A DNA stretch of 64,000 nucleotides. Source: Acidihalobacter ferrooxydans (lineage in GTDB: Bacteria; Pseudomonadota; Gammaproteobacteria; DSM-5130; Acidihalobacteraceae). Location of the stretch: assembly GCF_001975725.1 (NCBI RefSeq), contig NZ_CP019434.1, positions 2,869,322-2,933,321 on the forward strand, read 5' to 3'. The notes beneath the pieces were generated by a model that saw only the letters and a list, made by a program, of their open reading frames with translations, did no database searches and was not told the DNA's origin. Positions within the stretch are counted from its first letter, which is position 1, and the number at the start of each line of letters is the position of its first letter. Shown piece by piece: positions 19,791 to 54,453 of the stretch. The position numbers and the translations under genes were made by a program.

Positions 19791-19940
19791 CCCGGACATG
19801 TCGCAAATTTTCTCCGCTCTCGCGGGTCTCTTGATTCCACAAGGGATAGTTCCCCAGTCGGCCATCATCACCGATACGCCGCTCCTTCGGCGTTCTCTTA
19901 TGAACTCCTATCCGGCGCGATATCTTGTGCAGCATCCGGG
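19791..19940 (-). repeat. Palindromic element family A, copy between convergent genes
   Basis: About 150 bp, minus orientation, starting one base after the regulator's stop codon and ending 6 bp before the convergent GcvH-like stop, so it fills the whole gap. Ends are degenerate (CCCGGACATG / CATCCGGG). Conserved internal blocks are CTCTTGATTCCACAAGGGAT, CATCACCGATACGCCGCTCC and CTATCCGGCGCGATA. Its position suggests a role as a two-way terminator. Confidence 0.85.
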
Positions 19941-21821: not shown

Positions 21822-22739
21822 ATGATCGAACGCGCGCATCTGGCCATCATTCGCGAAATCGCCCGGCAGGGTTCGCTGACCGCCGCGGCCGAAGTTCTCT
21901 GCCTCACCCAATCGGCGCTGAGCCATGCGATGAAGAAACTTGAGCAGCAAGTCGGGGCGCCATTGTGGCGCCGCGAAGGTCGGCGCCTGCGCCTGACCCA
22001 GGCCGGCGAACACCTGCTCGGCGTCGCCAACCGCCTGTTGCCCCAACTCGAACAGGCCGAAGACACGCTGCGTCAGTTCGCCCGCGGCGAGCGCGGACTG
22101 CTGCGCATCGGCATGGAATGCCATCCCTGCCATGAATGGCTGCTGCGGGTGGTCGCGCCCTATCTGGCGCAGTGGCCTGACGTGGACGTGGACGTAAAAC
22201 AGGCCTTCCAGTTCGGCGGCATCGGTGGCCTGTTCGCGCACGAAATCGACCTGCTGGTCACGCCCGACCCCCTGCACCGCCCCGGTCTGCATTTCGAGCC
22301 GGTGTTCGCCTACGAACTGGTGCTCGCCGTCGCCCACGGTCACCGCCTGGCAGGCGTGCCGCACATCGAGCCCGAACAGCTCGTCGACGAAGTGCTGATC
22401 AGCTATCCGGTGCCGACCGACCGGCTTGACCTCTACACGCGGTTTCTGCTGCCGGCCGGGGTGCGGCCACGGCGGCGCAAGCTCATCGAGACCACGGACA
22501 TCATGCTGCAAATGGTCGCGGGGGGCCGTGGCGTGGCCGCGCTGCCGCGCTGGCTGGTGGACGAATACGCCGACCGGATCGCCGTCACGCCGCGCCCCAT
22601 CGGTCCGCAGGGCATCGTCAAGGACATCCATCTGGGCATCCGCGAAGCAGATCGCGATACCGACTATTTCCGGGCGTTCTTCGAACTGGCACGAGCCTCC
22701 GACGCACACGTCGACCGCACGGCAACCGGCAACGCCTGA
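21822..22739 (+). CDS. metR: LysR-family regulator MetR
   Basis: Homocysteine-responsive LysR regulator of methionine genes. The 305 residues have an N-terminal winged HTH (MIERAHLAIIREIARQGSLT, LTQSALSHAMKKLEQ) and a C-terminal effector domain. Diagnostic matches to E. coli MetR are RIGMECHPCHEWLL, LISYPVPTDRLDLYTRF with LPAGVRP, and QMVAGGRGVAALPRWLV. ATG at 21822 is chosen because the family begins MIE and upstream residues would come from the repeat. A consensus MetR box is immediately upstream. No met structural gene is adjacent except the distant MetX-like gene at 9.7 kb, whose upstream region lacks this box. Confidence 0.88.
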   Translation: MIERAHLAIIREIARQGSLTAAAEVLCLTQSALSHAMKKLEQQVGAPLWRREGRRLRLTQAGEHLLGVANRLLPQLEQAEDTLRQFARGERGLLRIGMECHPCHEWLLRVVAPYLAQWPDVDVDVKQAFQFGGIGGLFAHEIDLLVTPDPLHRPGLHFEPVFAYELVLAVAHGHRLAGVPHIEPEQLVDEVLISYPVPTDRLDLYTRFLLPAGVRPRRRKLIETTDIMLQMVAGGRGVAALPRWLVDEYADRIAVTPRPIGPQGIVKDIHLGIREADRDTDYFRAFFELARASDAHVDRTATGNA

Positions 22740-23046
22740 ACAGCGCTATCGCCCGTCCCGGCCCTGACCCGCGCCTTGCCCTGACGGCAGAGTTCGGGGT
22801 TGTCCGTAGGCGGTTTTCTGCGGGCGGATCTTCCGCACGCAATCCTCCGCGTCTTGATCGCGCATCCTTTTCCCCCGCCGTTCGTCTTCTCCACGTGTGA
22901 CTTAAGTCATATGTGGCATATCGCGCTACGCGTATGTTTGCCGCCACGCTCAACCGTTCAGTCACGAGGTCGACCGATTCATGACAACATGCTGCCCGCC
23001 CGCTCGGTTCCCAGCCAGCTGCCGTCGTCGCAGGAGGCTCGGCCGG
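22740..23046. promoter_or_regulatory. Regulatory region of the efflux operon, with a 26-bp palindrome
   Basis: A 307-bp gap without a recognisable gene. At 22891-22916 there is a near-perfect palindrome centred on TGACTTAAGTCA, extended by CCACnTn / nAnGTGG arms (only two mismatched pairs). It contains TGTGA-N6-TCATA, which resembles a CRP/Vfr site (TGTGA-N6-TCACA), but the longer symmetry also suits a dedicated repressor. It lies about 130-155 bp upstream of the TolC-like start. Confidence 0.55.
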
Positions 23047-24354
23047 ATGTCCATCGCGCCATTCGCGCTGCTTCTCGCCGCGTTTGCTCCCAGCGTCTGG
23101 GCGACCCAGACGAATCCGGCGACATGGACGCTGGCACGCGTCCTGAATCAGGTCGCCCAACGCTCACCCGCCGTGCTCGCCGCGCATGCGGGTATCGACG
23201 AGGCCAAGTCTCACGTCGGCCAGGCGCGCGCTCACTGGTTCGGCACGGTCGATTTGTACACGATCAGCAATCACTACAACGTCCCCATGCTGATCCAGCC
23301 GATCACCGCTTTTCCGCCGCCGAAAACATTCGGCAAGCAGTTTGCGAACGATCAGCTCGCCTACGGCATCGAGGCCAAGCTGCCGCTCGATTTCAGTCTG
23401 CGCATCGCCGCCGAAGTTGACGCCGCCAGCGCAGCCGAACGCGCCTCGCGCTGGAACGCGCGCAATGTCGAACTACAGACCCTGCTGACTGCCTCGGCGG
23501 TGTATCGCAACATCCAGGCGCTGCACGGCAAGCGCAGCGCGCTGGAGGAAGAACTCAAGGCCCTGCGCAAGGCCGAAGCCACGGCGCGCAGTTCGTTCAA
23601 GGCAGGCTTGTCCACCCGCCTGAAGCTGCTACGGGTGCAATCCGGCGTGGAGAACGTGCGCGCGGGGCTGGCGGGCGTTGACGGCCAGATCGCCTCGCTC
23701 AAAGCCGATCTGGCCAGCCTGATGGGGCTCAATCACTGGGCGGGAAACGTCACGCCACTGACCACGCCGCCTGCGCACATACCGGCCGCTGTCGGCGTCG
23801 CCCCCTTCGTACAGGCGGCCGAACAGGCCGATGCCGCCACCGGCTACAAGGTGAGCGCGGCCAAACGCGCGCTGTTACCGCAATTTTTCATTGGCGCACG
23901 CTGGAACGAGAACGGCCGCAACGGTTTCAAGGACGATTTCTTTACCCGTGACATCCAGTTGGGCTTCAAATGGAATCTGTGGTCCGGTTTCGGCCAGGTC
24001 AGCAGCATCGACGCCGCACAGGCCGCCCACATCCAGGCCAGCGAAAAAGCCCGTGGTGCGCAACTGAAACTGGCCGCCATTCGCGCCTCGGCCCGCGCCC
24101 GCTGGCATGCCCAAGCCCTGGCCTGGGAGGCCAACCGGGCCGGTGTGGCTGCAGCCCGGGAAGCCGCCGATAGCGCGCAGGGGCAGTTCAAGGCCGGACT
24201 GCTGGCCGCCACTTCCCTGCTACAGGCCGAAGCGGCATTGTCCGGCTCCCGCGCCGCCGAAACCGCCACGCTGGCGCGCTGGTGGGAAGCCAACGATGCG
24301 CTGCGCTATGCCGAAGGACTGCCGCCCATGACCCTGTCGGCCCCCTCCAATTGA
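23047..24354 (+). CDS. TolC-family outer-membrane efflux protein
   Basis: A 435-residue outer-membrane channel. MSIAPFALLLAAFAPSVWA is a signal peptide. The mature part has the two repeated helical halves of the family, with alanine-rich heptads such as AAEVDAASAAERASRWNARN and later LKLAAIRASARARWHAQALA. ATG at 23047 is chosen because AGGAGG lies 9 nt upstream and the signal peptide begins there. First gene of a five-gene operon with an HlyD-type adaptor, a tandem ABC ATPase and two ABC-2 permeases. Confidence 0.88.
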   Translation: MSIAPFALLLAAFAPSVWATQTNPATWTLARVLNQVAQRSPAVLAAHAGIDEAKSHVGQARAHWFGTVDLYTISNHYNVPMLIQPITAFPPPKTFGKQFANDQLAYGIEAKLPLDFSLRIAAEVDAASAAERASRWNARNVELQTLLTASAVYRNIQALHGKRSALEEELKALRKAEATARSSFKAGLSTRLKLLRVQSGVENVRAGLAGVDGQIASLKADLASLMGLNHWAGNVTPLTTPPAHIPAAVGVAPFVQAAEQADAATGYKVSAAKRALLPQFFIGARWNENGRNGFKDDFFTRDIQLGFKWNLWSGFGQVSSIDAAQAAHIQASEKARGAQLKLAAIRASARARWHAQALAWEANRAGVAAAREAADSAQGQFKAGLLAATSLLQAEAALSGSRAAETATLARWWEANDALRYAEGLPPMTLSAPSN

Positions 24355-24380: not shown

Positions 24381-25409
24381 ATGCTGCACGACACCATTCG
24401 CTTTTCCGCCCCGAAACTGCTGGCCGCAAGCGCGCTCGGCCTGGTGCTGGCCGCGCCCCTCGCCCAGGCAGCGGACACGCTGACGCTGTACGGCAATATC
24501 GACATCCGCCAGATCAATCTGGCCTTCCGCGACATGGGCCGCATCAAGAACATCCGCGTGCATGAGGGCGATCCGGTCAAGGCCGGCGCAGTGCTGGGCG
24601 AACTCGATCAGGCCCGTTTTCAGGATACCGTGCACAAGGCCGAGAACGCGGTGGCGGCGCAGAAGGAAATCGTCGCCAAGCTGCTGGCCGGCACCCGGCC
24701 GCAAAAAATCCAACAGGCCCGCGAACACGTCACAGCGGCCAAGGCGGGCGTACAACTGGCCGAAATCACCCTCAAGCGCATTCGCTCGGTGGAACGCAAA
24801 GGCTATGTGCCGCCGGAAAAGCTCGATGAGGCAAAGGCCAAATACGATCAGGCCGTGGCCAATCTGGCCGCCGCCGAAGCCGGCCTGAATCTGGCTCTGC
24901 AAGGCCCGCAAACGCAAGACATCGCCGCCGCCAAATACAAGCTCGCTTCAATGGAAGCCGAGCTGGCCTTGGCCAAGCGCGTACAAACCGACTCCAGGCT
25001 CATCGCGCCCGCCGACGGCGTCGTCGAAAACCGCGTGCTCGAACCCGGCGACATCGCCAGCCCGCAAGCTCCGGCCTTGATTCTGGCGCTCAACAATCCG
25101 GTCTGGGCGCGCGCCTATCTGCCCGAACCGGCGCTCGGCAAGGTGCGCGAAGGCATGCGCGCCTGGATCGAGAGCGATTCCTTCCCCGGCAAGCGGTTCC
25201 CCGGCTGGGTCGGCTTCATTTCACCGACCGCGCAGTTCACGCCGCAGCCGGTGCAAACGCCGAGCGTGCGCACCACGCTGTCCTACCGCGTGCGCATCTA
25301 TGCCTGCAATCCGGATGGCAAGCTGCGCCTCGGCATGCCGGTGACGGTCCAGATTCCCCTGAATCAGACGCAGCCGGTGCCCGCCTCGCAACAACGCTGC
25401 GCGCAATGA
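24381..25409 (+). CDS. HlyD-family periplasmic adaptor
   Basis: A 342-residue membrane-fusion protein similar to YbhG. A signal peptide (LAASALGLVLAAPLAQAA) is followed by a biotinyl-lipoyl-like half (IKNIRVHEGDPVKAGAVLGE), a helical hairpin rich in Ala/Lys/Gln (about 90-200), the second lipoyl half (LIAPADGVVENRVLEPGDIA) and a beta-barrel domain. It bridges the ABC permeases and the TolC-like channel. GGAG is 10 nt before the ATG; the ATPase gene starts 4 nt after the stop. Confidence 0.9.
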   Translation: MLHDTIRFSAPKLLAASALGLVLAAPLAQAADTLTLYGNIDIRQINLAFRDMGRIKNIRVHEGDPVKAGAVLGELDQARFQDTVHKAENAVAAQKEIVAKLLAGTRPQKIQQAREHVTAAKAGVQLAEITLKRIRSVERKGYVPPEKLDEAKAKYDQAVANLAAAEAGLNLALQGPQTQDIAAAKYKLASMEAELALAKRVQTDSRLIAPADGVVENRVLEPGDIASPQAPALILALNNPVWARAYLPEPALGKVREGMRAWIESDSFPGKRFPGWVGFISPTAQFTPQPVQTPSVRTTLSYRVRIYACNPDGKLRLGMPVTVQIPLNQTQPVPASQQRCAQ

Positions 25410-25413
25410 GACC

Positions 25414-26967
25414 ATGAACAAGCCGGTGCTGGAATTTCGTCAGGTCGGGGCGCGCGAAGGCAAGCGGCGTCACGCCCGCTGGCCGCTGCGAAAACTCGAT
25501 GTCGAGGTGGCCGACGGCGCGGTGCTGGGCGTGGCCGGCGTCGGCAAGAGCCTGTGGCTGGAACTGGCCTGCGGCTGGCGCGCGCCGGACGAAGGCCAGG
25601 TGCTCATTGCCGGGCATAGCAGCCTGCGCCTGCCGAGCGCTGTGGCCGCGGGCGTGATCTGGCTCGGCGAGGGTCAGCCCGTCTGGCCGCGACTGAAGGC
25701 CATCGAAGCGCTGGGCATACAGGCCGACCTGCATGCCGGATCAACGAACAAATCGGACTGGCAGGCGGCGCTGGAACAGGTCGACCTGGCCGCACGCGCC
25801 GGCACGCCCTGTCACCGCTTGACGCCCGGCGAAAAGACGCGCCTGCAACTGGCCCTGCTGTGGGCGTGCGCGCCCCGGCTCGTCCTGATCGATGCCGCCG
25901 TGCTCGATGTGGACGACGCGCTGGCGACCGCGCTCGCGCAGCGTATCGAAACCCTGGCGCAGGCCGGCACGGCCTTCGTGCTGGGGGTGACGCAGCCGCG
26001 CTGGGCCGAATCGTGCGAACGCGTGCTGTGGCTGCCGGAAGGCCGCGTCACCGACACCGCACAAGCATCCTCCCTGCAAGCGATGACCCTCGCGGTTTCC
26101 GGCGTGGAGCCCGCGCTGACGCTGGCAAAATCTGCCAACGCCCGCATCGTCTCCGGCGAGCCGGGCGCGGTGCGGCTCGTGAGCACAGGCTTCACGGCGT
26201 GGCCGGACGATGTAAAGCCTGCACCGCAAACGCCCACGCTGGGCGATGCTTTTGCCTGGCAGGCGCTGAAAAATGCTTCGAGCCCGTCCGCCACGGCCCG
26301 ACAGTCCGGCACGGCGGAACCCTTGCTGCGGCTGACGCGGCCCGGCCTGCGTCCTCTCGACGCGGATGCTGCGGAGCGGGACGGCTTGCACTGCGCGCAG
26401 GGTGAGATCGTGGCGCTGACGGGCGCAGGCGCGAGCGGGCTGCTTGCCGCGCTCGTGGAAGGCCGGCGCCTGGAGGGCACGCAGGTCGAATTGTTCGGCC
26501 GCAAGCGCGCCGACTTCGCCCTGCGCCGCCGCCTTGGCTATCTACCGCCGCAGCCGCCGGCGCAGATGGATTACCCGGCCCAGGCCTGGTTGGGCTGGCG
26601 GGCTGGCGTGTTAGGGCTTTCGTCGAAACAGGCCAAAGCGCGCATCTCGGAGTGGAGCGCGCGGCTCGGTGTGCAGGCGGCCTTGCCGCGGCCGTGGGCG
26701 GAATTGCGCTTTGCCGAAAAACGCCTGCTGCAACTGCTCGCCGCCTGGCTGCATCAGCCGGCGCTGCTGCTTCTCGACCGGCCTTTTGCCGGCCTCGATC
26801 CGCTCGCCGCCGAGACCGTGCGTTCGGTCCTGCTGGCATGGGCGGCGCAGGGGGCGGGCATTGTCCATGTCGCCGCGCACTATGACGAAGTCTGGTTTGC
26901 GGATCGAGCGTATCAGCTGGAGCGGCCGGCCACGATGCCGCATGCGCCAAGGCAGGCCCAGGCATGA
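25414..26967 (+). CDS. Tandem ABC ATPase with degenerate catalytic motifs
   Basis: A 517-residue fusion of two nucleotide-binding domains, the YbhF/RbbA arrangement. NBD1 keeps Walker A (GVAGVGKS, 39-46), but its signature is LTPGE (136-140), its Walker B LVLIDAA lacks the catalytic Glu (A161) and its H-loop reads VTQ. NBD2 has lost Walker A (GAGASGLL, 337-344, no Lys), has LRFAE for LSGGQ, and has Arg456 in place of Glu in LLLLDRPFAGLD; its H-loop His489 is kept. So neither site has a canonical catalytic Glu. The linker (about 215-300) is variable. It overlaps the next permease gene by 4 nt. It may hydrolyse ATP slowly, act by binding, or be decaying. Confidence 0.85.
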   Translation: MNKPVLEFRQVGAREGKRRHARWPLRKLDVEVADGAVLGVAGVGKSLWLELACGWRAPDEGQVLIAGHSSLRLPSAVAAGVIWLGEGQPVWPRLKAIEALGIQADLHAGSTNKSDWQAALEQVDLAARAGTPCHRLTPGEKTRLQLALLWACAPRLVLIDAAVLDVDDALATALAQRIETLAQAGTAFVLGVTQPRWAESCERVLWLPEGRVTDTAQASSLQAMTLAVSGVEPALTLAKSANARIVSGEPGAVRLVSTGFTAWPDDVKPAPQTPTLGDAFAWQALKNASSPSATARQSGTAEPLLRLTRPGLRPLDADAAERDGLHCAQGEIVALTGAGASGLLAALVEGRRLEGTQVELFGRKRADFALRRRLGYLPPQPPAQMDYPAQAWLGWRAGVLGLSSKQAKARISEWSARLGVQAALPRPWAELRFAEKRLLQLLAAWLHQPALLLLDRPFAGLDPLAAETVRSVLLAWAAQGAGIVHVAAHYDEVWFADRAYQLERPATMPHAPRQAQA

Positions 26968-28082
26968 GCGCGCCGGCGATGAAACGCCTGCTCGGCAAGG
27001 AGCTGACCGAGGCCTGGCGCGATCCCGGCATGTGGCTCATCAATCTGGTGCTGCCGGCGGCGCTGATGCTGCTGATGGGCTACGGCATGCAGATGTTCGC
27101 CCATCGCGTGCCCCTTGCGGTGGTGGACGCCAACCCGAGCGGCGCCACCCAGTCCTTCCTGTCGGCCCTGCGCAACACGGATTATTTCACTTTGCGCGGA
27201 TACCCGGATTTCCCGGCGGCGCGCCGTGCCGTGCAGGATGGGCGCACCTTCGGCGTGGTCTGGCTGCGCGGCGATTTCGCCCGCCGCCTGCAACTGGGGC
27301 AGCATCCCGAGATCGGCGTCTTCGTCAACGCGACCGACGCCAATCACGCACGCATCTCCGAAGGCTATCTCACCCTGGCCTGGCATGCCTGGGTCGAGCA
27401 GTACCTCGGCGATCACGGCCAAAAATTCCAGCCTCCCGTGGAGAGCGCCACCTTGCTCTGGTACAACCCGACCCTGAGTTCGCAGCGCTATTACATTCCC
27501 GGCGCCGTGGTGCTGATCATGACTGTGGTCGGCACCCTGTCGGCGCTGCTGTTGATGGCGCGGGAATGGGAGCATGGTGGCATGAAGCTGCTGCGCGCGA
27601 GCGGCGCGAAACTGCGGCAGGTATTTCTCGCCAAGCTGCTCACCGCCTTCCTGAGCACCTATGCCGGCCTGCTGGTGTGTGTGGCGCTGGCCGCCTGGCT
27701 GTTCCATGCCGCGCCGGTCGGCGGCTGGCTGCCGGTGCTCGGCTTTTCGGCGCTGCTCCTGCTGGCGCTCAACGCCATGGGGCTGCTGATCTCCGCCGGC
27801 ACGCGCAATCAGGAAAGCGCGCTGCAGATTTCGCTGCTGGTCACCTTCCTGCCCGCCTTCATCCTGTCCGGTTTCGTGTTCGCGATCTATTCCATGCCGG
27901 CGGCGATCCGCCCCTTCACCGATCTCATCGCCGCGCGCTTCGGCATGCATGGCCTGCTGACGCTGTTCGATGCCGGCCACATCGGCACGGTGCTGTGGTG
28001 GAACGGTGTGGGGCTGGTGCTGCTCACGCTGGTATTCCTGCTGCCCGCCATGCGTAACGCCTTGCGCAGGAGCCGCTCATGA
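26964..28082 (+). CDS. ABC-2 type permease
   Basis: A 372-residue inner-membrane permease like YbhS/YbhR: one N-terminal helix (LINLVLPAALMLLMGYGMQM), a large periplasmic domain (about 45-175), then about five helices including YYIPGAVVLIMTVVGTLSAL and AINSGTR-like NAMGLLISAGTRNQESALQI. ATG overlaps the ATPase stop, and the stop overlaps the second permease (ATGA), so all three are tightly coupled. It likely pairs with the next protein as a heterodimer. Substrate unknown; relatives export drugs and cations. Confidence 0.88.
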   Translation: MSAPAMKRLLGKELTEAWRDPGMWLINLVLPAALMLLMGYGMQMFAHRVPLAVVDANPSGATQSFLSALRNTDYFTLRGYPDFPAARRAVQDGRTFGVVWLRGDFARRLQLGQHPEIGVFVNATDANHARISEGYLTLAWHAWVEQYLGDHGQKFQPPVESATLLWYNPTLSSQRYYIPGAVVLIMTVVGTLSALLLMAREWEHGGMKLLRASGAKLRQVFLAKLLTAFLSTYAGLLVCVALAAWLFHAAPVGGWLPVLGFSALLLLALNAMGLLISAGTRNQESALQISLLVTFLPAFILSGFVFAIYSMPAAIRPFTDLIAARFGMHGLLTLFDAGHIGTVLWWNGVGLVLLTLVFLLPAMRNALRRSRS

Positions 28083-29212
28083 TGCGCTGGCTGGCCGTCT
28101 TGCGTCTGGAACTGGCGCGCCTCATGCAAATGAAGAAAACCCGCATGGTGCTGCTGGCGACGCCCCTGATTCCGCTGATCGTGTTCGGTTACGGGGTCAA
28201 TTACGATCTGACGCGCATTCCGTATGCGGTGTACAACGAAGATGCCGGTTATCTGTCGCGCGATCTGGTGGCGCGCTTCGCCGCCGACCCCACCTTTCAT
28301 CGGGTGGCGCGCTTGCAGAACGACCGCCAGATCCGCCCGCTGCTGGATAAAAGGCGCGCAGCCTTCGTGCTGCACATCGACGCGAATTACACCCGCAATC
28401 TGCTCACGCACCGGCCCGCGCCGGTCGAAGTGCTGATCGACGCGCGCAACGCCACCGAGGCGAGCACCATCGAGTCCTATGTCAATCACATCCTGCTTGC
28501 CTACAACGCGCAGTGGGCGGTCGAGCACCACCATCCCCCCGCGCCCGCGCTGCTGGTGATCCACAACTGGTACAACGCCAATCTCGATTCGCGCTGGTTC
28601 ATCCTGCCCGGCATCGTCGGCGTGCTCACCTTCGTGCTCACCTTGATGGTGACTGTGCCCAGCTTCGCCCGCGACCGCGAGCAGGGCCTGTTCGACAGCT
28701 ACCGGGCGCTGCCGCTGCGCGCCTTCGATCTGCTGGTGGGCAAGGGCCTGGCGGGCATGGCGGTCGGCTTTCTGGGCGCGGCCTTCATCGCCCTGATGGC
28801 GGTGGTCTGGTTCGGCGTGCCGCTGCGCGGGAGCATCGCCGCGCTGTTCGTCGGCCTGCTGGTGTTCCTGTTCGCCGCCAGCGGCATGGGGCTGTGGGTC
28901 TCCACCCTGACCCGCACCCAGATGCAGGCCGCTTTCGGACTGTTTCTGCTGTTCGTGCCGGCGTTGCTGCTGTCCGGCTTCATCTTCCCCATCAGCAAAC
29001 TGTCGGCGCCGGTGCAGACGCTGAGCCTGCTCGATCCGGTGCGTTACTTCCTCACGATCACCCGCGGCGTGTATCTGCAGGGCGCAGGCTTTGCCACCAC
29101 CGGCCCGGCCATGGCCAGCCTCGCCGTGCTCGGTTCGGTCGCCTGGGTCGGCGCCTGGCTCACGCTCGCCGTGCAGATGCGCCCGCTCGGCTCTTTCAAG
29201 TGCGCCGATTGA
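28079..29212 (+). CDS. ABC-2 type permease
   Basis: A 377-residue partner permease with the same plan: N-terminal helix (VLLATPLIPLIVFGYGVNYD), periplasmic domain (about 40-175), then helices including FILPGIVGVLTFVLTLMVTV, ALFVGLLVFLFAASGMGLWV and FGLFLLFVPALLLSGFIFPI. The motif RDREQGLFDSYRALPLRAFD before helix 3 is typical of ABC-2 transporters that contact the ATPase. Last gene of the efflux operon; the very AT-rich promoter of the CDF gene follows. Confidence 0.88.
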   Translation: MMRWLAVLRLELARLMQMKKTRMVLLATPLIPLIVFGYGVNYDLTRIPYAVYNEDAGYLSRDLVARFAADPTFHRVARLQNDRQIRPLLDKRRAAFVLHIDANYTRNLLTHRPAPVEVLIDARNATEASTIESYVNHILLAYNAQWAVEHHHPPAPALLVIHNWYNANLDSRWFILPGIVGVLTFVLTLMVTVPSFARDREQGLFDSYRALPLRAFDLLVGKGLAGMAVGFLGAAFIALMAVVWFGVPLRGSIAALFVGLLVFLFAASGMGLWVSTLTRTQMQAAFGLFLLFVPALLLSGFIFPISKLSAPVQTLSLLDPVRYFLTITRGVYLQGAGFATTGPAMASLAVLGSVAWVGAWLTLAVQMRPLGSFKCAD

Positions 29213-29226
29213 CGCTAATTAATTTA

Positions 29227-29255
29227 TTGATCATTTAATTAATAATATTTATAAT
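29227..29255 (+). promoter_or_regulatory. Strong sigma-70-like promoter in an AT-rich island
   Basis: TTGATC at 29227-29232 and TATAAT at 29250-29255 are separated by exactly 17 bp. They sit in about 50 bp of almost pure A/T (29217-29266), in striking contrast to the GC-rich surroundings. The stretch is also nearly palindromic around TGATCA at 29228-29233. It should drive the CDF transporter and the ECF sigma gene. The AT-richness could also mark silencing by an H-NS-like protein or use by a regulator. Confidence 0.7.
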
Positions 29256-29277
29256 TAATGATATTCCATCCTTCGCC

Positions 29278-29294
29278 ATGAAGTAACGCTTCAT
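29278..29294 (+). promoter_or_regulatory. Leader hairpin before the CDF start codon
   Basis: ATGAAG / CTTCAT form a perfect 6-bp stem with a TAACG loop, ending 11 nt before the CDF ATG at the place where a ribosome site should be. No Shine-Dalgarno sequence is seen there, so translation may depend on this structure. Weak by itself. Confidence 0.3.
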
Positions 29295-29305
29295 GACTTG
29301 CCACC

Positions 29306-30526
29306 ATGTCAAACGCCTCCACAGCAAATCCCGATATCGATCTTGAAGAACGCGAGAAGCGGCGTTGGATGCTCGCTTCGACCGGCTTCAACAGTGCGCT
29401 CGGCCTGGCCAAGTTCGCCTGGGCCTGGTGGAGCGGCAGCCTGATCGTGATGGCCGACGCCGTGCACAGCCTGTCCGACGTCATCGGCGCCTTGCTGGTG
29501 TATGCCGCCGTCCGCTTTTCCACCCACCGTTCGGCCCGCTTCCCTCTTGGGCTGCACAAACTCGAGGACATGGCCGCGGTGCTCAGTGGCCTGGCCGTGC
29601 TCGCGGCGGCTTACGAGATCCTGCGCAGTGCATTCGATACCGGCCATGCGCCAGCGACTATGCCATTTTTGACCAGTGGCTTCATCGCCGTCCTCCTGCT
29701 GCTGCAAATCGCGTTTTATCTGGCCGAAAAAAAGGCGGCGGATCGCCTGGGCTCACCCGGCCTGCGCAGTGATGCGGTCAACTGGCTGGGCGATATCGGC
29801 GCGGGCGTGGTGGTCATCGTCGGCGTCATCGCGCACGGCCTGGGGATTCCCTATGCGCAGCAAATCGCCGTCGGCATCATCGTGCTGCTGATTCTGCATG
29901 GCGCCTGGGAAGTGCTTCGCGACGGCCTGCTGTCTCTGCTCGACGCGGCGGCCCTGGGTGAGGAACGCGAGCAGGTCATGCAGCTATTCGAGCATCATCC
30001 CGGCATACAGACCGTGCGCAACGTGATTCTGCGCCGCGCCGGCAGCGCGCTGTTTCTGGCCGCCACGGTCGAGGTCTTGCCGACCGGCCTGAAAGCCGCC
30101 CATGAGGTGATCGACCAACTCGAAACGGCGCTCAGAGCGAAGCTTCCGCGGCTGGAAACCATCGCCATTCATTTCGAGCCGGCCACTCAAGTGCGTTGTT
30201 GCTCGGTAAGCCTGTATGAAGAAAACAAACAAACGCTGACGCGTCGTTTCGGTCACGCCGCATGGCTACTCCTGGAGGAAAACGCTACCGACGGCAGCAC
30301 ACCACAGCAGGTATGGATCGCCAATCCCTACCGGGATGCCGCACGCGGCAAGGGCATCAAACTGGCCGCCTGGCTGATCCGCTTGAATGCCGAACGGGTA
30401 CGCTTCGCGTCTGATACGCCGCTCGATCCAGCCCTGGCCGAATTGCTGGAAAGCGCCGGAATCACCCTGGAAATCGAAATGAACAGCACGGATCGGAAAA
30501 CAGAGTTGCCAGTCAGGCAGTTATAA
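29306..30526 (+). CDS. Cation diffusion facilitator with C-terminal NifX-like domain
   Basis: A 406-residue inner-membrane metal exporter, normally H+ coupled. The six-helix region (about 20-215) has the TM2 metal motif H54SLSD58. In TM5 the usual HxxxD reads N159WLGD163, so one expected His ligand is Asn, which may alter metal choice. A cytoplasmic ferredoxin-like domain follows (about 215-290). Residues about 297-395 (CCSVSLYEENKQTLTRRFGH, GKGIKLAAWLIRLNAERVRF) resemble the NifX/NifB-type FeMo-cofactor-binding domain, an uncommon fusion. It starts after a strong AT-rich promoter and is 35 nt before the ECF sigma gene. Metal unknown. Confidence 0.85.
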   Translation: MSNASTANPDIDLEEREKRRWMLASTGFNSALGLAKFAWAWWSGSLIVMADAVHSLSDVIGALLVYAAVRFSTHRSARFPLGLHKLEDMAAVLSGLAVLAAAYEILRSAFDTGHAPATMPFLTSGFIAVLLLLQIAFYLAEKKAADRLGSPGLRSDAVNWLGDIGAGVVVIVGVIAHGLGIPYAQQIAVGIIVLLILHGAWEVLRDGLLSLLDAAALGEEREQVMQLFEHHPGIQTVRNVILRRAGSALFLAATVEVLPTGLKAAHEVIDQLETALRAKLPRLETIAIHFEPATQVRCCSVSLYEENKQTLTRRFGHAAWLLLEENATDGSTPQQVWIANPYRDAARGKGIKLAAWLIRLNAERVRFASDTPLDPALAELLESAGITLEIEMNSTDRKTELPVRQL

Positions 30527-30561
30527 TTCGAGCCCGTCCCTAATTACGAGGAAATCCAAGT

Positions 30562-31122
30562 ATGCGTGACGCATCCATGGTGCCTTGCGCCCTGCAAGCC
30601 TGGCAGACCTACGAGCAGGAATTACATGGTTTCCTGCGCAAGCGCCTGCACACCGACCATGACGCAGACACCGCTGAGGATTTGCTCCACGACGTGTTCT
30701 TGCGCCTGATGCGCCAGGGCGGAAAATTCTGCGAAGTGGACAATGTCCGCGCCTGGCTGTTCCATGTCGCCCGCAACCTGCTGATCGACCATCAGCGCCG
30801 CCGCCATCCCACGGTCGAACTACCGGAAGAACTGGCCTGGGAGCCGGACGACCCGGCCCCCGTGGACAGCCTGGTGGCCTGTCTGCCGCGAGCGCTGGAT
30901 TGTCTGTCGCCCGAGGATCGGGACGCGCTGATCCACTGCGATCTCGGCGGCCTTACCCAAGCCGAATACGCCGTGGCGCACGGCTTAAGCCTGCCCGGCG
31001 CCAAGTCGCGGGTACAGCGTGCGCGGGCACGCCTGCGCGAGACGCTGGTCGAATGTTGCGGCGTGCGTTTCGACGCGGATACCGGGCAAGTCTGTTGCCG
31101 AGTGCCGCCGCCACAACCTTGA
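30562..31122 (+). CDS. ECF sigma factor with a Cys-rich tail, SigZ-like
   Basis: A 186-residue sigma-70 family factor. Region 2 spans about 35-80 (AEDLLHDVFLRLMRQGGKF, NVRAWLFHVARNLLIDHQRR) and region 4 about 112-160 (LTQAEYAVAHGLSLPGAKSR, VQRARARLRETL). The tail carries Cys165-Cys166 and Cys178-Cys179 in ECCGVRFDADTGQVCCRVPP; the first pair is usual in SigZ-like factors, the second is extra. No anti-sigma gene is nearby. Metal-sensing sigma factors of the CorE type use C-terminal cysteines, and the co-transcribed metal exporter makes a metal sensor plausible, as inference. Confidence 0.85.
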   Translation: MRDASMVPCALQAWQTYEQELHGFLRKRLHTDHDADTAEDLLHDVFLRLMRQGGKFCEVDNVRAWLFHVARNLLIDHQRRRHPTVELPEELAWEPDDPAPVDSLVACLPRALDCLSPEDRDALIHCDLGGLTQAEYAVAHGLSLPGAKSRVQRARARLRETLVECCGVRFDADTGQVCCRVPPPQP

Positions 31123-31152: not shown

Positions 31153-31370
31153 TTGCCGGATCTCTCCGCTCCAATCGGGTCGCGTCCTGCATGCCACCTC
31201 GCTCCACCCCATGTGCATGGAATCCGGACATTCCGCTGTTGCCGCCCGCAGCATGGATCGCCGCTCCATGGGATGCAATCACCGTGCATCCTTCGCGGAT
31301 TTCCTGCGTCTACTTGCATACCCAGGCCTGAACCGGAGCCGCACTAAAGTCACAGCCCGCCGTTCGCGGG

Positions 31371-31516
31371 TCGGCTATCGTGCGGTGTCGCGTCGGATAG
31401 TGTTTTCACAAGGGATCTCAGAAGGGCGGCGTGTCGGCGATGACGGTCGACCGATGATATATCCCTTGGGGAATCAGGAGACCCGTGAGATCGGCGGTCG
31501 TTGTGAAACAGTCGGA
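31371..31516 (+). repeat. Palindromic element family A copy, 5' end decayed
   Basis: About 146 bp, plus orientation. The internal blocks are conserved (TCGCGTCGGATAGTGTTTTC then ACAAGGGAT; ATATCCCTTGG; CGGCGGTCGTTGTGAAACA), but the left terminus has lost CCCGAATG and the right ends in GTCGG. Inner arms CACAAGGGAT / ATCCCTTGgG have one mismatch. It ends about 100 bp before the flavoprotein start. The whole 493-bp gap 31123-31615 contains only this element and the hairpin above. Confidence 0.8.
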
Positions 31517-31615: not shown

Positions 31616-33010
31616 ATGGATCCCAATACAAGCTACGACGTACTCATCATCGGCGGCGGCCCCGGCGGCACGCCGGCGGCCATGGCGCTGGCGCAGGCCG
31701 GCAAACGGGTCTTGCTGGTCGAGGCCGGGCACGGCCTGGGCGGCACCTGCCTGTTCGAGGGCTGCATCCCGTCCAAGATCTTCCGTGAAACTGCGGCCAA
31801 GCGGCGCGAACTGGCCTCGCTCGGCGATTTCGGTCTGCCCCTGCCGCAGACCGAGGGCATGTCGGTGAACTGGAGCGCGGTGCAGACCCGCAAACATCAC
31901 ATTCTCAGTGGCCGTGCGCAAGGCGCGTTAGCGAAGGCGCGGAGCTTGCCCGGGCTGGACGTCGTGTTCGGCCGCGCCCGCCTGACCGCTCCGCGCTCGG
32001 CCGTCATCGAAACCGGCGGCGAGCGGCGCGAGGTGGCGTTTGCCAACGCCCTGCTCGCCACCGGCTCGGTCGCCTCGCCCCTGCCGATTCCGGGGGCGGA
32101 CCTGCCCGGCGTGCTCGACTCGACGGGACTGATCGAAATCGGCTTCGTACCCAAGTCGCTGGCCCTGATCGGCGGCGGTCCCATCGGTGTCGAAATGGCG
32201 CAGATCTTTGCCATGCTGGGCAGCCAGGTCACCGTGCTCGAAGCGGGACCGCGAATTCTCGGCCCGGTGGACGGCGTGCTCGCCGGCCTGCTGAGCGAGC
32301 GCTTGCGCGGCGAAGGCATCACCGTGGAGACCGGCGTGTCGGTCCAGGCGATCGAAGGCGAGGGGCAGCAGCATACCGTGCGCTACGCCCACGAGGGGCA
32401 GGTGCATACGGTCGAGGCGCAGGTCGTGGCCATCGTCGCCGGCCGTCATCCCAACGTGGACGGCCTCGGCCTGGAAACCACCGCCGTGCAGCACGACCGG
32501 CATGGCGTTAAGGTCGATGCCACCTTGCAGACCGACGAGCCGGGCATCTACGCCACCGGCGATCTGGTCGGCAATCCGATGTTCGCCCACTGGGCGACCG
32601 CCCAATCGCTTGCCGTGGCCCGTCATCTGCTCGGCGCACCGGCGGCTTTCCCGAACCCGGCGCACAACAGCGCGGTAATCTTCTCCTATCCGGAGCTGGG
32701 CATGGCCGGACTGACCGAAGACGCCGCCCACGCCGCCGGCCTCGAAGTGGCAGTGGCCGAATACGATTACCGCATCGACGCGCGCGCCCAGATCAGCGGC
32801 GACGCCTTCGGTCGCCTGCGCCTGGTCTATCGCAAGGACGACCGGCGCATCGTCGGCGTGCATGCGCTCGTCGAAGGCGCCGCCGATCTCATGGGCGAGG
32901 CCGCGCTGATCGTGCGCCACGGTCTGACTCTGGAACAGGTAGGCGCTGCGATTCATCCGCACCCCACCCTGACCGAGGCCTTCGGCCTGACGGCGCTCGG
33001 TGCGAAATAA
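31616..33010 (+). CDS. Dihydrolipoamide dehydrogenase-like flavoprotein
   Basis: A 464-residue pyridine nucleotide-disulfide oxidoreductase. The FAD motif is VLIIGGGPGGTPAAMALAQA, the redox-active pair Cys45/Cys50 lies in GGTCLFEGCIPSK, the NAD motif is ALIGGGPIGVEMAQIFAMLG, the second FAD contact is IYATGDL, and the dimer-interface His/Glu are in HPHPTLTE. It has everything needed to oxidise a dihydrolipoyl carrier. No 2-oxoacid dehydrogenase E1/E2 genes adjoin it; the only lipoyl carrier in the window is the GcvH-like protein at 20 kb. GAGGAG lies 10 nt before the ATG. Confidence 0.88.
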   Translation: MDPNTSYDVLIIGGGPGGTPAAMALAQAGKRVLLVEAGHGLGGTCLFEGCIPSKIFRETAAKRRELASLGDFGLPLPQTEGMSVNWSAVQTRKHHILSGRAQGALAKARSLPGLDVVFGRARLTAPRSAVIETGGERREVAFANALLATGSVASPLPIPGADLPGVLDSTGLIEIGFVPKSLALIGGGPIGVEMAQIFAMLGSQVTVLEAGPRILGPVDGVLAGLLSERLRGEGITVETGVSVQAIEGEGQQHTVRYAHEGQVHTVEAQVVAIVAGRHPNVDGLGLETTAVQHDRHGVKVDATLQTDEPGIYATGDLVGNPMFAHWATAQSLAVARHLLGAPAAFPNPAHNSAVIFSYPELGMAGLTEDAAHAAGLEVAVAEYDYRIDARAQISGDAFGRLRLVYRKDDRRIVGVHALVEGAADLMGEAALIVRHGLTLEQVGAAIHPHPTLTEAFGLTALGAK

Positions 33011-36345: not shown

Positions 36346-36492
36346 CCCGGATGTTTCACAACGCGTGCTGATCACGCCGGATAGTGTTTTCACATGGGAC
36401 ACCGAAGGAACGGCGTATCGGTGATTACGGTCGACTGTGGCAATACCCCTTGTAGAATCAAGAGACCAGCGAGACCGGCGGCGCACTTGTGC
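36346..36492 (+). repeat. Palindromic element family A copy next to element B
   Basis: About 147 bp, plus orientation, left end CCCGGATGTTTCACAACG intact and right end decayed after GACCGGCGGCGC. The inner arms are mismatched (CACATGGGA / CCCCTTGTA). Together with element B it fills most of the 444-bp gap between sulP and the rhodanese operon. The last 130 bp before the first rhodanese hold no gene and should carry the promoter. Confidence 0.8.
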
Positions 36493-36625
36493 CACCCATC
36501 GATCCCCGATAACGCCGGCTCGACCAGCGCGAACGGGCCGCTCAATCCCCCTCGCCCCTGCATCCTTTCATAACGCTTCACGTCATCGTAAAGGTCAATC
36601 CCTGACATGACTTGAGGAGCGTTTC

Positions 36626-37021
36626 GTGAACACAATACCTTTCGACGACTATCTGCGCCGCTTCGACTACGCGGAGCGGCTCGCCATGAAAATCCAGCTC
36701 GCCGAGATGTTCGATCTGTACGCCGAAGGCAAGGCGCAGCTCATCGACATCCGCTTTCGCGAGGAATATGCCGCCTGGAATCTCGGCATCGGCACGCACA
36801 TCCCGCTCAACGAACTGCCCGACCGCCTCGGAGAACTCGACCGCGGCAAGACCATCGTGCCGATGTGTCCGCATTACGACCGCGCCGAAATTGCGCGTCT
36901 CTATCTCACCCTGCAGGGCTTCACTTCGCGCTATCTCACCGACGGCATGCTCGGCATCGTCAATGCCCTGCGCGGCGACAAGGCCCGCGACTACATGATC
37001 CGCTTGGGAGAAACCCGCTGA
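36626..37021 (+). CDS. Rhodanese-like domain protein
   Basis: A 131-residue single-domain rhodanese. The presumed sulfur-accepting Cys81 heads the active-site loop CPHYDRAEIA; the classic loop is CxxGxRS, so this is a variant. LIDIRFREEYAAWNLGIGTH followed by IPLNELPDRL is the family's substrate-side signature. It probably carries persulfide sulfur in the cytoplasm. GTG start with GGAG 6 nt upstream; the stop overlaps the second rhodanese (TGATG). Confidence 0.88.
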   Translation: MNTIPFDDYLRRFDYAERLAMKIQLAEMFDLYAEGKAQLIDIRFREEYAAWNLGIGTHIPLNELPDRLGELDRGKTIVPMCPHYDRAEIARLYLTLQGFTSRYLTDGMLGIVNALRGDKARDYMIRLGETR

Positions 37022-37398
37022 TGGACACACTCGACACGCTCGCCCGCAACACCGTACCCACCGCCATGGGTCAAGCCCGTATCGGCATCGACGATTTCAT
37101 CACCCCCTACAACGAAGGCCGCTGCGAACTGCTCGACATCCGCGTGCCGGAAGAAACGGCAGTCTGGCAACTCAACTTCGGTCTGCGCATTCCGGCCAAC
37201 GAACTGCCCGACCGGCTGGATGAACTGCCGCGCGACACACTGCTGGTTGTCGCCTGCCCGATGTCGGACCGCTCCAACATGGCGCGCAGCTATCTCACCG
37301 CCAAAGGCTTTCAGGCCAAATACCTGGCCGGTGGGCTGCTGGGGCTGGTCGACCGGCTCAAGGGCGGCGCAGCCAAACACCTGGCCATACGCCGATGA
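37021..37398 (+). CDS. Rhodanese-like domain protein
   Basis: A 125-residue rhodanese with Cys79 in ACPMSDRSNMARSYL and the preceding LLDIRVPEETAVWQLNFGLR then IPANELPDRL. It is clearly related to the protein encoded just upstream, with the same CPxxDR loop, so the pair arose by duplication. Its stop overlaps the TSUP permease start (ATGA). The three genes form a coupled operon for sulfane-sulfur or sulfite handling. Confidence 0.88.
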   Translation: MDTLDTLARNTVPTAMGQARIGIDDFITPYNEGRCELLDIRVPEETAVWQLNFGLRIPANELPDRLDELPRDTLLVVACPMSDRSNMARSYLTAKGFQAKYLAGGLLGLVDRLKGGAAKHLAIRR

Positions 37399-38144
37399 GC
37401 GCTGTGCTGCTGCACGACGGCCTGTATTTCCTGCTCACGTTTGCCCTGGCGACCCTGTTCGCCATGGGCGGCGTGGGTTCGGCCATCGCCCTGGTGCCGA
37501 CCCTCTCGATGCTCGGTCTGCCGCTGAATCTGGCCAAATCGATCGGGCTGTTCGTCAATTCCTCGTCGACCATCACCGCCTCGATCATGAACTTCCGCCG
37601 CGGCGTGCTCGACATACGTTTCACGGTGCCGCTGGTGATCGCAGTCGTGCTGGCCACACCGGTTGGCGCATGGCTGAGCCGCTACGTGCCGGAGCACATC
37701 GTGCAATGGGTGCTGGCCATTTTTCTGCTCGTCAGCGCAGGACTGTTACTTTTCAACAAACGCGAGGCCAAAGTCGCCTACGACAGAACCTGGGTCATGC
37801 TCCTGCTCGGCGCGGCGGTCGGACTGGTTTCGGGTTTGATCGGAGTCGGCGGAGGCACACCGATTCTGGCCGTGCTGACCCTGCTCGGCTTCGATCCCAA
37901 AAAAGCCGCATACGCGGTCAGTTTCGTGATTCCTTTCTCGACGCTCAGCGGCTTTTTCACCTACCTCAGTTTCGTGCACATGGACTGGGTGCTGCTCGGC
38001 GTGGTCACCGTAGCCGCTATCCTCGGCGGTTATCTGGGCGGGCGCATCATGCACTACCGTCTCAACGCCGCCCAGGTCAAGAAACTCATCGCCGTCCTGC
38101 TGTTGCTGCTGGCCGCCAAAATGATCTGGAGCTTGCTCGCGTAA
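37395..38144 (+). CDS. TSUP (TauE/SafE) family permease
   Basis: A 249-residue inner-membrane protein with about 8 helices in two repeated halves. The family motif appears as AMGGVGSAIALVPTLSMLGL and again as GLIGVGGGTPILAVLTLLGF. TSUP proteins move sulfite, thiosulfate, sulfoacetate or related organosulfur anions. Placement behind two rhodaneses suggests a sulfur compound, for example export of sulfite or import of thiosulfate; direction is not readable from sequence. The stop is 16 bp before a family-A element. Confidence 0.9.
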   Translation: MSAVLLHDGLYFLLTFALATLFAMGGVGSAIALVPTLSMLGLPLNLAKSIGLFVNSSSTITASIMNFRRGVLDIRFTVPLVIAVVLATPVGAWLSRYVPEHIVQWVLAIFLLVSAGLLLFNKREAKVAYDRTWVMLLLGAAVGLVSGLIGVGGGTPILAVLTLLGFDPKKAAYAVSFVIPFSTLSGFFTYLSFVHMDWVLLGVVTVAAILGGYLGGRIMHYRLNAAQVKKLIAVLLLLLAAKMIWSLLA

Positions 38145-38160
38145 GCACTCGAAGACCGAA

Positions 38161-38316
38161 CCCGAATGTTTCACAGATTCATGCTGATAGCGCGCCGGAT
38201 ATTGATTTCACAAGGGACACCGAAGGAACGGCGTATCGGTGATGACGACCGACTGAGGAAATATCCCTTGTGGAATCAAGAGCCCCGCGAGATCGGCGGT
38301 CGTTGTGAAACATTCG
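38161..38316 (+). repeat. Palindromic element family A, reference copy
   Basis: 156 bp, plus orientation. Outer arms CCCGAATGTTTCACA / TGTGAAACATTCG; inner arms CACAAGGGA (38209-38217) / TCCCTTGTG (38264-38272); central arms CGGT (38237-38240) / ACCG (38248-38251). Drawn out, the element folds as one long imperfect hairpin with three nested stems. It lies between the TSUP gene and the transglycosylase gene, ending 96 bp before the latter's start. Confidence 0.88.
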
Positions 38317-54294: not shown

Positions 54295-54453
54295 CCCGAA
54301 TGTTTCATAACGAGTGCTGATATCGCGTCGGATAGTGTTTTCACAAGGGGATTTCAGAAGGAGCGGCGTATCGGTGATGACGGCCGACTGAGGAAATACC
54401 CCTTGTGGAATCAAGAGACCCGCGAGAGCGGCGGTCGTTATGAAGCATTCGGG
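54295..54453 (+). repeat. Palindromic element family A, complete copy upstream of mscS
   Basis: 159 bp, plus orientation, ends CCCGAATGTTTCATAACGA / TCGTTATGAAGCATTCGGG. The inner arms are CACAAGGGG / CCCCTTGTG, differing from the 38-kb copy by a matched pair of changes. It lies between divergent recC and mscS and ends 19 bp before the mscS ATG, so it will form the leader of the mscS mRNA or hold its promoter. Confidence 0.88.

Follow-up and report, generated by a model that had tools for sequence, protein, structure and literature searches.

A SigZ-like sigma factor with conserved cysteines and its predicted efflux and sulfur-handling regulon, beside a metal exporter with a NifX-like tail, in Acidihalobacter ferrooxydans

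Results

Two adjacent genes and a shared motif

We studied a stretch of 64,000 nucleotides from Acidihalobacter ferrooxydans (contig NZ_CP019434.1, positions 2,869,322 to 2,933,321; genome of 3.45 Mb), hereafter called the window, in which a gene for a metal exporter of the cation diffusion facilitator (CDF) family is followed, after 35 bases and in the same direction, by a gene for an extracytoplasmic function (ECF) sigma factor. An original prediction, made from the sequence alone, had taken the two genes for a self-contained metal-sensing and export switch; the coordinates and reading frames it gave for both are correct. We report here that the sigma factor belongs to a clade with conserved cysteines, and that a motif TGCATC-N16-CGTCT, which we predict to be its promoter, stands ahead of three gene groups of the window: the tolC-hlyD-ABC-CDF-sigma run, a gene for an FAD oxidoreductase and a rhodanese-rhodanese-TauE operon (Table 1). 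The earlier observation is confirmed, and its interpretation is partly supported and enlarged.

The exporter and its tail

The CDF protein has 406 residues. Its core matches PF01545 (E 4.3e-34, 118.5 bits against a curated cut-off of 26.6) and is followed by a ZT_dimer domain (E 7.2e-13, 48.8 bits against 26.7); when the full structure model is submitted to Foldseek, the top 50 rows are all CDFs. In an alignment with YiiP, H54 and D58 occupy the metal-site positions of transmembrane helix 2 (TM2), and N159 and D163 those of TM5; we take the YiiP counterparts to be D45/D49 and H153/D157. The asparagine which the original prediction had noticed in the place of the usual histidine is indeed there, and all four residues are invariant in the 14 aligned CDF sequences (13 of the 15 loci obtained by scanning genome contigs, plus the window; L019 and L020, which end before the tail, were dropped). 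The four ligands of the A site are present, in an unusual set, while the two further CDFs of the same genome show HxxxD in TM5, as read by eye. N159 marks a non-standard CDF metal site. We dropped an assignment of the metal from N159, as its sole basis was the invariance of the residue.

The tail covers approximately residues 297-398. The Nitro_FeMo-Co family of Pfam matches it with E 0.072 and 13.8 bits, below the gathering cut-off of 26.3, and matches 8 of the 14 tail members at E<=1, the best at 0.004; taken alone, this sequence evidence for a NifX-like tail is weak. A profile of the tail gives a single match in the PDB at E<=10, MTH1175 (1eo1), with E 1e-4. We then considered the predicted structure of the tail, which has a predicted local distance difference test score (pLDDT) of 87. 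After re-alignment of the candidates to this model with VIA-align, proteins of the NifX/NafY/ORP family fill the top 11 rows (Z 8.7-11.5), among them TM1816, orange protein, NafY and NifX (9ian_F, Z 8.9), and retroviral integrases rank under them with Z about 7; plain Foldseek gives the first rows to RNase H-like nucleases, and no row reaches E<=0.001. On the model, the tail has a NifX-like fold, as had been proposed with a structure check in view. The tail alignment contains no cysteine column and no histidine retained in every member, so that any binding of a ligand or of a metal-sulfur cofactor by the tail is hypothetical. One may ask why the fold of a cofactor carrier is attached to a metal exporter.

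The sigma factor and its cysteines

The sigma factor matches Sigma70_r2 and Sigma70_r4_2 above the cut-offs and has only regions 2 and 4, as is characteristic of ECF factors. Its match to TIGR02959 (SigZ) extends into the tail (E 3.7e-44) but its 150.6 bits are below the curated cut-off of 168.65; with NF007215 it scores 133.9 bits, below the cut-off of 212. Among 18 subfamily sequences, C57, C107, C126, C166 and C178 are kept in all, and C9 and C179 in 17 (this count includes L071, though L070 and L071, being near copies of L067, are left out when loci are counted). C107 lies at the border between the linker and region 4, and C166 and C178-C179 lie within a C-terminal tail of 28 residues. The "CC...CC" tail of the original prediction is literally present and three of its cysteines are conserved, whereas the fourth, C165, is found in only 1 of the 18 sequences. 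In canonical SigZ relatives C107, C165 and C166 are present in 10 out of 10; from the set of seven, only C107 and C166 are retained throughout.

In a tree of 31 rows, the 18 subfamily sigma factors and two plasmid sigma factors of the arsH type form one clade, with a support of 100/100, apart from SigZ. This clade may already carry a number in the published reclassification of ECF factors. As had been predicted, no anti-sigma family was found among the window neighbours put through Pfam; the LysR-like and DUF488-like genes upstream, named by eye, were not searched. Nor is any anti-sigma factor annotated in the ten plasmid regions that we read, where some annotations are hypothetical proteins. 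Matches to the sigma factor at E<=1e-18 occur in 23 of 369 genomes of the class, 12 of them with a match of at least 46% identity, and relatives at E<=1e-20 are carried by 1352 of 72,556 plasmid records. In L047 (8074-9824) an ars cluster harbours a tandem of sigma genes, one from the new clade and the other SigZ-like.

The promoter motif

Downstream of the sigma gene, in the gaps of seven independent loci, we recognised by eye the pattern TGCATCCTTTT-N11-CGTCT, that is, TGCATC-N16-CGTCT. Six of these seven discovery loci have it with at most one mismatch, and L052 has it with two. At this tolerance of one mismatch it occurs in 5 of 9 further sigma loci (6 sites, against 0.06 in shuffles) and in 6 of 10 canonical SigZ loci; none of 14 CDF loci without the sigma gene has it. 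The window contains three sites, where shuffles lead one to expect 0.015-0.03, all on the plus strand and ahead of genes; a motif shared within the genome, for which a search had been suggested, is therefore found. The whole genome has six, three of which fall inside 13.7 kb of the window. We also scanned 20 genomes: the exact motif is present in 8 of the 11 which bear the sigma gene (G084 and G275, among these 8, are discovery loci) and in none of the 9 which do not.

In the sister genome G001, a site again precedes the tolC gene of the same operon (tolC 83% identical), with 12 of 14 box positions and 4 of 13 spacer positions identical. The exact motif also precedes rhodanese-rhodanese-TauE there (L094; genes 84, 75 and 81% identical), with 13 of 14 box and 3 of 13 spacer positions identical. 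In G001 a different gene follows sigma, and the 31285 site was not found at the corresponding place. In G157, G149 and G253 the motif is missing from the sigma loci and stands elsewhere, ahead of genes for arsP-type permeases with 48-87% identity to the queries. The site of G002 (L093), a genome without the sigma gene, has no recognised target.

Canonical SigZ genes adjoin arsM (NF008823) in L056 (1-1127), L057 (6467-8007) and L063 (3702-5136); the arsM match is above the cut-off in L057 and L063 and is a fragment in L056. TGCGTC-N16-CGTCT stands beside arsM in all three, and in L057 it overlaps the open reading frame (ORF) as read. Since arsM and the motif are found together beside canonical SigZ genes, this suggests that SigZ proper is also linked to arsenic. 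In three Klebsiella/Salmonella plasmid regions (L113, L114, L115), CGCATC-N16-CGTTT lies between sigma and arsD.

We rejected a candidate sigma-dependent promoter directly before the CDF gene (29265), since it has 3 mismatches, a level at which 4.8 sites would be expected, and the sister species does not retain its boxes. The gap in which it lies (29213-29305) is AT-rich and strongly conserved in the sister species. It contains a short palindrome, CATGAAG-N5-CTTCATG, with one change in the sister, which could be an operator. The possible housekeeping promoter TTGATC-N17-TATAAT was found there once, for a shuffle mean of 0.7.

Table 1. Genes and predicted promoters around the CDF and sigma genes, in window coordinates
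Feature	Position	Strand	Remarks
Predicted sigma-dependent promoter CGCATC-N16-CGTCT	22861..22887	+	1 mismatch; 94 bases upstream of tolC ORF
TolC-type outer-membrane efflux protein	22981..24354	+	PF02321 E 1.6e-36
HlyD-type membrane-fusion protein	24381..25409	+	PF16576 E 3.9e-22
ABC transporter, two ATPase domains in one protein	25414..26967	+	PF00005 E 4.2e-20, two stretches
ABC-2 permease 1	26964..28082	+	PF12698 E 6.8e-37
ABC-2 permease 2	28079..29212	+	PF12698 E 4.2e-41
Possible housekeeping promoter TTGATC-N17-TATAAT	29227..29255	+	in AT-rich gap; weak alone; L061 has both hexamers
CDF exporter (transmembrane core, ZT_dimer cytoplasmic domain, predicted NifX-like tail)	29306..30526	+	site H54, D58, N159, D163
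SigZ-like ECF sigma factor	30562..31122	+	subfamily-conserved C9, C57, C107, C126, C166, C178, C179
Predicted sigma-dependent promoter TGCATC-N16-CGTCT	31285..31311	+	exact; precedes FAD oxidoreductase
FAD/NAD(P) disulfide oxidoreductase (lipoamide dehydrogenase/MerA-like)	31616..33010	+	PF07992 E 1.2e-59
Predicted sigma-dependent promoter TGCATC-N16-CGTCA	36559..36585	+	1 mismatch; 41 bases upstream of rhodanese 1
Rhodanese-like protein 1	36626..37021	+	PF00581 E 5.3e-07
Rhodanese-like protein 2	37024..37398	+	PF00581 E 8e-05; start provisional
TauE/SafE family transporter	37395..38144	+	PF01925 E 3.4e-41

The FAD oxidoreductase also matches TIGR01350 (E 2.2e-105), under the cut-off, and a gene 82% identical to it adjoins the CDF gene in L062. 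The ABC ATPase and the two permeases (25414-29212) resemble RbbA split over separate genes, all under the RbbA cut-off. An interspersed repeat of about 126 bases occurs at 31389-31514, 36373-36498, 38191-38316 and 54326-54451, the copies sharing 70-82% identity; inverted ones lie near 19814 and 63528. The copies at 31389-31514 and 36373-36498 are near two of the motif sites but do not contain them.

Distribution and gene context

Relatives of the CDF protein, including its tail except in L019 and L020, were found in 18 genomes, and the scan of genome contigs gave 15 loci. The nearest named relative, at 92%, is in a metagenome-assembled genome (MAG) of Acidihalobacter; others are in unclassified gammaproteobacterial MAGs, a Campylobacteraceae MAG, Sulfurovum, Sulfurimonas, Nitratifractor and Thiomicrorhabdus, which we take to be mostly genera of sulfur oxidisers or vent-type MAGs. 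The sigma gene lies within the fetched DNA of 3 of the 18 CDF genomes (the window, G001 and L019), several contigs being short; the CDF is without sigma in view in the other 15, some of them on short contigs, and sigma is without this CDF at 14 of 17 loci. The CDF and the sigma factor are not a fixed pair, and the regulon predicted for the window comprises three operons or more; a self-contained switch is not supported.

The labels of our gene maps come from BLAST against queries which were annotated, tested with Pfam or named by eye (by eye: the RND of L051, the MerA-like protein of L007, the multihaem cytochrome, the HlyD/ABC of L017 and LysR). On these maps, arsenic genes (acr3, arsC, arsA, arsD, arsR or arsM) are near 9 of the 17 sigma loci, namely 5 of the 13 on chromosomes or MAG contigs and all 4 on plasmids. 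Two more have arsP and thioredoxin nearby without ars genes proper, and the remaining six are those of the window, G001, G250, G152, G157 and G149. In the ten plasmid regions read, some of them from gut bacteria, ars genes are annotated near sigma in nine and the tenth has an ArsR-like ORF: the Ideonella, Comamonas, Klebsiella and Citrobacter plasmids have sigma-permease-thioredoxin alongside ars genes, that of Sulfuricella has ars genes, then sigma, then a TolC-RND pump, Enterobacter pEL-ars2 has the ArsR-like ORF with sigma-permease-thioredoxin, and L113, L114 and L115 share the order arsR-arsH-sigma-arsD. In an evenly spread listing of the plasmids, whose context was not read, most rows are by identity like the arsH-type sigma. 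A distant match in Hymenobacter, closest to SigZ and likewise among the ten regions, is also near ars genes. By megablast, the Klebsiella-type sigma gene of L067 is in 103 plasmid records, all at 99% or more; the block of 5.4 kb from arsA to thioredoxin is matched in part in 121 records and over at least 80% in one place in 22, which means that it is not universal as an exact unit. The gene neighbourhoods speak for arsenic or thiophilic stress more strongly than for a single cation.

No plasmid match to the CDF was obtained at E<=1e-40. Genes for arsP, thioredoxin, rhodanese or TauE are near 9 of the 14 mapped CDF loci without sigma, and L020 also has arsP and thioredoxin nearby. In Nitratifractor, Sulfurovum and Thiomicrorhabdus (L014, L016, L018), rhodanese-rhodanese-TauE genes 60-73% identical to those of the window lie about 0.5-4 kb from the CDF gene, on the opposite strand in L018. 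Hence the CDF and rhodanese-TauE genes, linked by the motif in A. ferrooxydans, are linked by location in 3 of 14 other loci. In another genus of the family (L062, 7095-15988), the CDF gene is flanked by those of an RND pump and of the FAD oxidoreductase, with no sigma gene, and in L007 (1129-4886) a CDF with a NifX-like tail is near a mercuric-reductase-like gene with an HMA domain (by eye).

Discussion

We consider it fairly probable that the sigma factor is autoregulated, detects a thiophilic metal(loid) or reactive sulfur by means of its own cysteines, and governs a regulon for efflux and sulfur handling to which the CDF exporter belongs. The inducer would be a thiophilic metal(loid), for which As(III) or Sb(III) are the best candidates over the family as a whole, or else a reactive sulfur species; it would bind or oxidise conserved cysteines (C107, C166 and C178-C179, with C9, C57 and C126). 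This would change the ability of the factor to engage RNA polymerase, without an anti-sigma factor. Once active, it would read promoters of the TGCATC-N16-CGTCT type and would activate the operon in which it is itself encoded (outer-membrane channel, adaptor, ABC pump, CDF and sigma), the FAD oxidoreductase and the rhodanese-rhodanese-TauE operon; the possible housekeeping promoter before the CDF gene may give basal expression of CDF and sigma. As the site at 22861 heads the whole tolC-hlyD-ABC-CDF-sigma run, the factor is predicted to control itself positively. The CDF with its NifX-like tail would be one effector of the regulon, exporting metal via its H-D/N-D site.

The family assignments, the conserved cysteines, the shared motif with its placement and the two sites kept in the sister genome are supported by the sequences compared. 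We infer that this sigma factor is the one which reads the motif, and gene context suggests what its inducer may be; the substrate of the CDF and the role of its tail are proposed in the same conditional sense. Direct sensing is suggested by the conserved cysteines, by the fact that no anti-sigma gene was found and by the precedent of CorE.

Several observations weigh against this reading. Four of the nine test loci have no linked motif, and G152 has no site at one mismatch or fewer in its genome. At this tolerance the motif is in 10 of the 11 sigma-bearing genomes but also in 4 of the 9 sigma-free ones, and a reversed control pattern matches in 5 of the 20. In A. ferrooxydans the three sites outside the 13.7 kb have no clear target gene, and a looser pattern gives 8 sites against 3 for its reverse; the exact site of G253 (L101) has no recognised target either. 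As background, reversed-pattern and targetless sites thus occur, any single motif site may be due to chance. The site at 31285 is 305 bases away from the assigned start of the FAD oxidoreductase ORF. Eight of the 17 sigma loci, the window cluster included, are without an arsenic gene; the A. ferrooxydans chromosome has arsB at another place, and no ACR3 was found, so that in this genome the inducer may be something other than arsenite. Finally, the factor could be controlled solely through its transcription.

This last point can be made into a complete explanation, which we hold to be doubtful: the sigma factor would be constitutively competent and would act by its amount, the operon would be under a repressor (ArsR, LysR or another), and the cysteines would be structural, for instance by binding zinc. 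An ArsR gene does stand in or beside several sigma clusters (annotated in plasmid regions; found by BLAST in L047, L054 and L071), a LysR-like gene named by eye (21822-22739) is upstream in the window, and both the possible housekeeping promoter and the short palindrome precede the CDF gene. However, such an explanation has to account for seven cysteines kept in at least 17 of 18 sequences when canonical SigZ retains only two of them throughout, and we reason that positive autoregulation without a switch of activity would tend to lock on. Another explanation, possible though on balance unlikely, is that reactive sulfur (polysulfide, persulfide, sulfite or a thiosulfate imbalance), and not a metal(loid), provides the signal, and that the regulon balances sulfane sulfur; arsenic clusters would then carry the sigma gene because arsenite and thiols interact. 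Genes for rhodanese, TauE, OsmC, arsE-type thioredoxin and SulP recur in the clusters, the named CDF relatives come mostly from what we presume to be sulfur-oxidising or vent habitats, in two species the predicted targets include rhodanese-TauE, and 3 of the 9 proteobacterial plasmid regions read have a rhodanese or TauE gene. Against this, the other 6 have none, and canonical SigZ loci bear the motif beside arsM.

The switch made of the CDF and sigma alone, as first proposed, appears improbable to us: the genes are adjacent and co-directional, and the arrangement in G001 is identical, but the sigma gene accompanies so few of the CDF genomes, and the predicted promoters extend to two further operons. 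That the motif is a chance or repeat-derived pattern is very improbable. Repeats do lie near two of the three window sites, and background sites occur genome-wide and in sigma-free genomes; nevertheless the repeats exclude the sites, shuffles give far fewer per window, and a second species retains two of the sites with changed spacers.

A wider conjecture can be formulated, of which we are ourselves rather sceptical. The clade would be a direct thiol-based metalloid sensor controlling accessory detoxification of arsenic and thio-metalloids in many Proteobacteria, also where clinical plasmids carry it in ars operons. The regulon of sulfur and iron oxidisers would deal with thiolated species, whether thioarsenic or metal-sulfide clusters: the sulfur would be managed by rhodaneses and TauE, the CDF tail would bind metal-sulfur species and the CDF would export the metal. 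Be that as it may, a specific promoter together with specific cysteines makes the regulon testable and offers a candidate job for SigZ-related factors.

Comparison with known systems

We know of no function assigned to SigZ, which is the closest named family (TIGR02959, NF007215). The sigma factor of the window shares C107 and C166 with it, and three loci of canonical SigZ bear the motif next to arsM; it differs from SigZ by its score under the cut-offs, by its separate clade (100/100) and by the additional C9, C57, C126 and C178-C179. The plasmid sigma factors of the arsR-arsH-sigma-arsD order (Klebsiella, Salmonella) fall in the same clade of the tree (L113, L115) and have the same cysteine tail. 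They are about 37-40% identical to the window factor, C126 is replaced in the three that we read (by eye), their related motif before arsD has 3 mismatches, and, unlike the window factor, they work beside ArsR and ArsD. Operons of the ars type are usually described as ArsR-controlled. In our searches of the open-access literature we recognised no account of this sigma factor as an arsenic or metal regulator, nor of its promoter. In the accessible part of a KPC plasmid transcriptome, a gene which we matched by gene order only, between arsH and arsD, is called "hypothetical protein" (PMC6286996); the accessible part of a Salmonella paper groups a sig70-like factor among recombination and modulation genes (PMC12504007), and that of a survey of Acidithiobacillia records SigZ without ascribing to it a role in metal response.

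The CDF protein resembles YiiP/FieF and other CDF exporters by its transmembrane core and its cytoplasmic dimerisation domain, and differs from YiiP/FieF by N159 for the TM5 histidine, by a TM2 histidine for the aspartate of YiiP and by the added domain. On its structure model this domain shares the fold of NifX, NafY and orange protein (Nitro_FeMo-Co); unlike them it is fused behind a CDF, has neither a cysteine column nor a universal histidine, and scores below the Pfam cut-off.

The closest precedent for the proposed mechanism is given by CorE and CorE2 of Myxococcus xanthus (ECF44, now ECF238), whose DNA binding depends on metal. According to the parts of the two sources available to us, CorE-like factors have a CXC motif in the sigma2-sigma4 linker (PMC8999054) and a C-terminal cysteine-rich domain of 38 residues with four invariant cysteines (PMC3107203). 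Like them, again on these partial sources, the window factor is an ECF sigma near which no anti-sigma gene was found; it adjoins metal-efflux genes and has cysteines in the C-terminal tail and toward the sigma2-sigma4 linker (PMC3107203, PMC8999054). Unlike them, it has no CXC in the linker but the single C107 at its border, its tail of 28 residues has three conserved cysteines, its closest named family is SigZ, and its context is one of arsenic and thiol genes where that of CorE is copper. Judging from the published description of CorE, and not from a comparison of sequences, we rejected membership of that family, as both the linker CXC and the domain with four invariant cysteines are missing. 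By analogy, the sigma factor may work like CorE; the CorE-like factors are for it a model of mechanism, not its family.

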